This document shows, piece after piece, positions 55,347 to 57,424 of a DNA stretch of 64,000 nt. The stretch is from Puniceicoccaceae bacterium 5H (GTDB taxonomy: Bacteria; Verrucomicrobiota; Verrucomicrobiia; Opitutales; Oceanipulchritudinaceae): the NCBI GenBank assembly GCA_009772895.1, contig WOUP01000003.1, positions 62,001-126,000 of the forward strand, written 5' to 3'. The translations under genes and the position numbers were made by a program. Each line of letters starts with the position of its first letter. Within the stretch, counting starts at the first letter, position 1. The notes below the pieces were generated by a model. The model saw only the letters and a list, made by a program, of their open reading frames with translations. It was not told the DNA's origin and searched no databases.

Positions 55347-56726
55347 ATGTCGCAACCCGCGCATCCGACGAGCGTGCCGAGCCTGGAACAGAGCTTTGCG
55401 CGCCACAACGTAGACCCTTTTCTCGACGCCTTCGAGCCAGCGTCCACGCCGCTGGCTCCGCACGGTCATGGCCGCATGATGGGCGCCGCAGCCGATGTCG
55501 AAGCCCCCTTCGATGAATGGGCGCCCCACGTGTTTCGGGAGCGTTCCACCGTGCCGCTTTGCCTGTATTTGCATGTGCCGTTTTGCCGGCACCGTTGCGC
55601 CTTCTGCCCGTTTTACCGCAACGCCAGCCGCGAGGGATTCAGCGCAGAATACGTGCAGCTGTTGCAGCGAGACCTCGACTTGACGGCCGACACCCTGCGC
55701 GGGATTACGCAGTCCCGGCGGGTGGAGGCGGTCTATTTCGGGGGCGGCACGCCGAGCGATCTGGATCAGGCGGACCTCGAGACGGTGTTGCACGAGCTGA
55801 AGGCCGTCTACGCGATCGACGCACAGACGGAGGTGACGGTCGAAGGGCGGATCCGAGGCTTTACGCCGGCGAAGGCCGAGGCCTGGGTGCAAGCGGGGGC
55901 GACGCGATTCTCTCTGGGCCTGCAAAGCACCGAGACGACGTTGCGGCGTCGCCTGGGGCGTCTGGCCGACCGGCGGGAGATGCGGGAAACGCTGGCCACG
56001 CTCAAGGCGACCGGTGCGCTGGTCATCGTGGACTTGATTTTCGGTCTGCCGGGCCAGACTGCCGCTTCGCTCGAGGACGACATCCGCTTTTTGGCCGAAG
56101 AAACGGAGGTGGACGGCCTTGACCTCTACGAGTTGAAGCAGTTCCCCGGCAGCCCGATGGCCAAGATGATCCAGAGCGGACGGCTGCCGGCCCCGGCCGG
56201 GGTGCGCGAACGCGGGCGACTCTACCGGGCGGCGGTTGAGGCGCTCGATGCGCAGGGCTTCGAGCACTTCACGCTCCAGCACTGGCGGCGCAACTCGCGC
56301 GAACGCTCGCTTTACAACCGGCTGGCCAAGACCGAGGCCGACATGCTGCCTTTCGGCTCCGGGGCGGGCGGACGCCTCGGGCGCATTTCCATCACGCGCG
56401 AAGGCCTGCTCGAGGTCTACCGCTCCAGCCTGATAGCCGGCAAAGTGCCTGCCCGGTTCACCGAGAGCCGCGGACCGGTCACGCTCTTTGCCTCCGTGCT
56501 CACCAACGCACTCGAGCTGCGGTGCCTGCCGCCGCTCGAGGACTGGCCGCGGGCGTCTTTTGCCTGGCGCGACCGGCTGCTTGCAAACTGGCAGGAGGCG
56601 GACCTGCTGACACTGCCCGCAGACGCCGTCACCCCGATCGCGTTGACTCCCGCCGGCTGCTTCTGGGCCACCCACCTCCAGCGGCAGCTCCTGCGGCTCT
56701 GCGCCCACAGCCGGGAGGCGGCTTAA
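55347..56726 (+). CDS. HutW/ChuW-family radical SAM protein (anaerobic heme use)
   Basis: 459 residues, HemN-like radical SAM enzyme. Cluster Cys80, Cys84 and Cys87 lie in PFCRHRCAFCPF. AVYFGGGTPSDLDQADL, TVEGRIRGFTPAKAEAWVQA, RFSLGLQS and the late RNSRERSLYNRLAKTEADML followed by PFGSGAGG are the marks of the ChuW/HutW heme-degrading methyltransferase family rather than coproporphyrinogen oxidase. In known systems it opens heme without oxygen and sits with hutX, hutZ and a TonB heme receptor; none is near here. The stop codon shares a TTAA with the stop of the convergent channel gene. A SAM-binding GGGTP is present. Confidence 0.88.
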   Translation: MSQPAHPTSVPSLEQSFARHNVDPFLDAFEPASTPLAPHGHGRMMGAAADVEAPFDEWAPHVFRERSTVPLCLYLHVPFCRHRCAFCPFYRNASREGFSAEYVQLLQRDLDLTADTLRGITQSRRVEAVYFGGGTPSDLDQADLETVLHELKAVYAIDAQTEVTVEGRIRGFTPAKAEAWVQAGATRFSLGLQSTETTLRRRLGRLADRREMRETLATLKATGALVIVDLIFGLPGQTAASLEDDIRFLAEETEVDGLDLYELKQFPGSPMAKMIQSGRLPAPAGVRERGRLYRAAVEALDAQGFEHFTLQHWRRNSRERSLYNRLAKTEADMLPFGSGAGGRLGRISITREGLLEVYRSSLIAGKVPARFTESRGPVTLFASVLTNALELRCLPPLEDWPRASFAWRDRLLANWQEADLLTLPADAVTPIALTPAGCFWATHLQRQLLRLCAHSREAA

Positions 56727-57424
56727 GTGGAGACCTTATCGGAATCATGCTCCCGAGCCTTGGAGAGGGCCGCCGCAAAAAGCCCGGTCGGCACGGAGAT
56801 AAAGCCCAGACCGATCATCAGAATGAAGAAGGTAAAGATACGTCCGCCGACCGTGATAGGGTAGACGTCGCCGTAACCCACGGTAGTCAAGGTCGCGACG
56901 GACCACCAAAGACACTCGAAGACGGAGGAGAACTTTTAGGGCTGAGCAGCGTGCTCAAAGTAGTATATGCCGACCGAGGAAAGGTAGAGCATGAGACACG
57001 CCGTCGTACCGAAGAGCACCAGCTCCTCTCGGACCATCACGAAGGCGCGGTGATAGCGTTGGACGGCGGCATTGTAGCGCACGAGCTTGAACAGGCGAAA
57101 AAGGCGCAGAAGCCGGAGCCCCCGCAATGAACGTAGATCGATGCCGAGCGAAAGGTAGAAAGGCAGAATGGCCAGCAGGTCGATCAGGCCGAGAAACGAG
57201 AGCAGGTAGCTGCGGCGGGGCCGGCTCAGCGTTGCCCGGACCAGATATTCGATCGTGAAGATGATGACGGAGAAGGCCTCAAAATTGCCCAGCGCCTGGC
57301 GCCACTGCGGGCTGAGGTTCGGCTGGGTTTCCGCTGCAAAGGCAAGCAGGCTCAGCACGATAAGGGTCTGAATGGGGAGTTCCCATTTACCCAAGCTGAT
57401 GCGGCCTTGCGCGTCTCGTTTCAT
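56723..57424 (-). pseudogene. Voltage-gated potassium channel with in-frame TAA between sensor and pore
   Basis: The frame from 57424 gives four TM segments (S1-S4) in 162 residues: WELPIQTLIVLSLLAFAAE, SVIIFTIEYLVRATLS, SYLLSFLGLIDLLAILPF and the arginine-rich S4 SLRGLRLLRLFRLFKLVR, then S5. Codon 163 is TAA (56936-56938), directly after HAAQP. The same frame then continues without further stops: KFSSVFECLWWSVATLTTVG and YGDVYP (pore helix and K+ filter TVGYGD), then S6 (FILMIGLGFISVPTGLFAAA) and a TAA at 56723-56725. In homologues a Glu (GAA/GAG) usually stands at the stop position, so one base change explains it. Read as one gene it would be 233 residues, the normal length. Confidence 0.85.

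Follow-up and report, generated by a model that had tools for sequence, protein, structure and literature searches.

An in-frame stop codon in the S5-to-pore-helix loop of a putative voltage-gated-type potassium channel gene of Puniceicoccaceae bacterium 5H, probably a young nonsense mutation

Some six-helix potassium channels of the KCNH type still work when their chain has been broken by engineering at certain places. Engineered KCNH channels with a break in the S4-S5 linker are functional (PMC4389246), and hERG tolerates a split in the S2-S3, S3-S4, or S4-S5 linker (PMC6013512 and PMC4389246). No functional expression of human hERG is reported when the split lies between S5 and the pore loop, at residue 573 (PMC6013512). 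Here, we describe a gene of Puniceicoccaceae bacterium 5H whose reading frame is broken in that last loop by a single stop codon. It is an ordinary bacterial potassium channel gene with a stop in it. The window analyzed was a stretch of 64,000 nucleotides from contig WOUP01000003.1, and all positions for the 5H gene refer to that stretch.

The gene lies on the minus strand at 56723 to 57424, as judged from its translation and from Pfam and phmmer matches. Read from 57424 down to 56723, the frame opens with ATG and runs for 162 codons to the residues HAAQP, a part that holds S1 to S5 and the basic residues of S4 (56939 to 57424, minus strand; translation and PF00520). A TAA then follows as codon 163 (56936 to 56938, minus strand), placed by the translation and an ortholog model in the loop that leads from S5 to the pore helix. 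Beyond it, 70 further open codons encode the pore helix, the TVGYGD filter, and S6 (56726 to 56935, minus strand; translation and Pfam), and the frame closes at a normal terminal stop, likewise TAA (56723 to 56725, minus strand). At its 3' end (56723 to 56726), the gene overlaps by 4 bases the 3' end of a convergent radical SAM gene on the plus strand (55347 to 56726). Between 56400 and 57800, we found no promoter-like sites where 0.4 were expected and two terminator-like sites where 1.0 was expected; one of the two lies within the gene (57126 to 57105, minus strand).

Both sides of the stop were matched by Pfam ion channel families, which marks the parts as pieces of a single real gene and not as frames open by chance. 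The part before the stop matched PF00520 (Ion_trans; E = 1.4e-20), while the part after it matched PF07885 (Ion_trans_2; E = 1.4e-16) and also PF00520 (E = 1.7e-11). In S4, basic residues recur at every third position (R98, R101, R104, R107, R110, K113, and R116). When the stop was read through, phmmer matched the protein to solved chains of Kv4.2 and Kv1.3 (E of about 1e-23) and to the "potassium channel" 1orq (E = 3.1e-16), which we take to be KvAP. The frame thus holds a GYG selectivity filter (TVGYGD, 3' of the stop) but, as assembled, no uninterrupted S1-S6 chain, the TAA standing at codon 163. On sequence grounds, the family name of six-helix voltage-gated potassium channel is the gene's, and its product is putative. 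Counting this one, three genes of the 5H genome have a pore match to PF07885, and the other two contain no stop.

Comparison within the genus was with one other genome (G001), which carries an uninterrupted ortholog that is 66% identical to the 5H gene. This ortholog is flanked by counterparts of the same neighbors, namely, genes for a radical SAM protein, a thioesterase, a short-chain dehydrogenase, and an AraC-type regulator. It is colinear with the 5H gene over residues 1 to 225, and its structure was modeled from 20 sequences (mean pLDDT, 78.8; pTM, 0.64). In the model, a helix at residues 115 to 157 spans the end of the sensor region together with S5, a loop occupies residues 158 to 167, and the pore helix follows at residues 168 to 179, so that codon 163 of the 5H gene falls within the loop. 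In the 5H genome, moreover, the PF07885 match already sets in some 20 residues ahead of the stop. By this modeled placement, the stop follows S5 and cuts the pore domain itself. A preliminary description of the locus had recognized a channel frame split by a single TAA at 56938 to 56936, which the translation bears out. Its further statement that the stop falls exactly between voltage sensor and pore was mistaken, since both the start of the PF07885 match and the loop of the G001 model put S5 ahead of the stop.

To place the interrupted codon among homologs, we drew on a genome scan, which gave 38 homologous loci, and on a search of 88 relatives besides the 5H genome, 23 of which had a match at E ≤ 1e-20 with paralogs included. 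All 64 distinct stretches from the scan and the relatives search were aligned. Paralogs were kept; the gene itself (L001, L041, and L068), duplicates of L066 (L002 and L069), and the third channel (L070, C20) were left out. No stop occurs at the site in any of the 64 aligned stretches. The alignment, a check of the kind proposed in the preliminary description, gave a sense codon in 64 of 64, most often Glu (39), with Asp and Asn in 6 each, His in 3, Ser, Ala, and Pro in 2 each, and Lys, Gly, Thr, and Gln in 1 each, some distant stretches being loosely aligned at this point. A class-wide search of 384 genomes at E ≤ 1e-45 found matches in 20, the 5H genome among them, and added 16 new loci. Fourteen of these were read directly at the site, where all 14 have Glu and none has a stop; for the other pair, L122 and L123, no internal stop is listed. 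Three genomes (G054, G027, and G303) had been flagged for a stop inside the match, as if the stop were shared, but on reading, each proved to be the normal end of the gene.

The homologs also included loci that are unusual in other respects. One from a metagenome-assembled genome of Planctomycetaceae (L020:4001-4678) is interrupted by a lone in-frame stop, which follows YLLRL and does not coincide with the 5H stop. Another three (L030:4001-4699, L032:4001-4699, and L029:4001-4555; two from records titled Elusimicrobium or Elusimicrobiales and one from an uncultured bacterium) keep S1 to S6 and the AQP-xF loop and lack the GYG filter, the filter region reading TFCQAGADIS in two and TFSTGGAGIE in one. 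Their match to PF00520 is good and that to PF07885 weak. Given the missing GYG and the weak PF07885 match, the ion selectivity of these predicted channels may differ. In L059, an altered filter (SKVGYGGAF) closes an open frame of 735 codons, the first part of which is not channel-like.

We looked for decay beyond the lesion using 29 of the 64 stretches, omitting 34 more distant ones and L004, which is close to L003. No decay was seen in conserved columns or branch lengths relative to these 29 homologs. Where a column was at least 90% conserved among them, the 5H gene kept the conserved residue in all 34 columns before the stop and in all 26 after it; with none of these 60 columns changed, free drift can have reached no more than about 5% per site. 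On a fixed tree, ranked from the longest down among 30, the terminal branch of the 5H gene came 22nd for the part before the stop (0.247) and 27th for the part after it (0.051). Composition told the same story: GC3 was 0.76 before the stop and 0.74 after it, compared with 0.76 in long frames, and codon scores were 0.28 and 0.18, compared with a mean of 0.22 (standard deviation, 0.13). Because the part after the stop has not decayed, the stop must be very young, not real, or bypassed. With decay absent, the stop itself is the only sign of a dead gene.

We consider it probable that the stop is real, a recent nonsense codon in an otherwise ordinary channel gene. An error in a base or in the consensus, with an intact and ordinary channel in the organism, fits the sequence equally well: nothing beyond a single codon is at fault, and all strongly conserved columns on either side are kept. 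The stop in L020 is a second isolated one in a draft genome; such stops thus occur in drafts and may be errors. Against this explanation, the assembly figures are good (40 contigs, 98.64% complete, and 0.03% contamination). A codon-model scan over 184 kb of the same contig produced 42 candidates including this gene, and the other 41 resembled, by eye, gene junctions or antisense shadow frames. That scan argues weakly against a high error rate; requiring 45 open codons on both sides, it is insensitive, and one error could escape it. We therefore hold an error to be a real but lesser possibility, with the balance between it and mutation set by the general rates of pseudogenes and of consensus errors. 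Mutation and error together very probably cover what happened here.

Two further explanations would make the stop part of a working gene. In one, read-through of the TAA or local recoding would yield some full-length channel. A read-through gene would likewise show no decay after the stop, and the site tolerates many residues among the homologs. However, none of the 64 homologous stretches shares the stop, TAA also ends the gene itself, and the RNA downstream (103 bases from the stop on) folds in an ordinary way (z = -0.73; matched by 46 of 200 shuffled sequences). No suppressor tRNA (anticodon TTA, CTA, or TCA) was present among the 41 tRNAs found, which are an incomplete set. The release-factor genes prfA and prfB are present and free of stops; since they are intact and the gene ends in TAA, a changed genetic code is also out. 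We regard read-through or recoding as very unlikely, and its more specific form, in which regulated decoding of the TAA at a low rate would let translational read-through set the amount of working channel, as more improbable still. Missing from the same 41 tRNAs are a tRNA-Ile with its own anticodon and tRNA-Ala(TGC), both of which may sit in unassembled rRNA operons. In the other explanation, the two parts would be separate proteins that together form a split channel; alternatively, the first part would act as a lone voltage sensor. Voltage-sensor-only proteins are not known to carry S5, yet the first part retains it. After the stop, the first standard in-frame start is a TTG (codon 179), which lies two codons ahead of TVGYGD, where the pore helix ends; a GTG (codon 182) follows within the filter, and the first ATG comes at codon 203, in S6. 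No standard start therefore comes early enough to include the pore helix, and no second protein containing it can begin there. None of the homologs examined is split at this site. The engineered KCNH channels that work when split at the S4-S5 linker, S2-S3, or S3-S4 speak for a split channel in general (PMC4389246 and PMC6013512). But the hERG split at residue 573, which is at the place equivalent to the 5H stop, was not functionally expressed (PMC6013512). Of all the explanations, we give this one the least credence. Thus, of the four options left by the preliminary description, a young nonsense mutation and a base or assembly error survive; read-through finds no support in the unshared stop, the tRNAs found, or the ordinary RNA fold, and two separate proteins are contradicted by the S5 in the first half and by the lack of a start that would give a pore helix.

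If the stop is a real, young mutation, as we infer, then a stop has recently taken the place of a single sense codon in a tolerant loop, and the cell would make at most a 162-residue S1-S5 fragment that would be unable to conduct. Loss of the channel would presumably be tolerated and the gene dispensable, because most related genomes lack a close relative of the gene and the 5H genome has two other channel genes left. Matches with an E value of <1e-60, the likely orthologs, were found in 6 of the 88 other relatives; with any match at E ≤ 1e-20, paralogs included, in just 23, the gene is often absent. For annotation, the matter is a small one and comes down to marking a single gene of one assembly as interrupted. 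Were the stop real, the locus would present a freshly lost channel, a snapshot of gene loss ahead of decay. Were it read through, it would encode a regulated channel of an unusual kind.

Set beside known systems, the gene resembles six-helix channels of the Kv and KvAP type in its PF00520 and PF07885 domains, its basic S4, its TVGYGD motif, and its matches to Kv4.2, Kv1.3, and 1orq. It differs from them in having one stop in the S5-pore loop, and its channel activity is only predicted. As in a nonsense pseudogene or young null allele, there is a single stop, and an uninterrupted ortholog sits at the same place in G001; unlike a typical one, the 5H gene has no further decay, and a base error also fits. 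With the engineered split KCNH channels (hERG and Kv10.1), it shares a chain that is broken between helices. In those channels, however, the working splits lie in other loops, and no functional expression was seen with a split in the S5-pore loop (PMC6013512).
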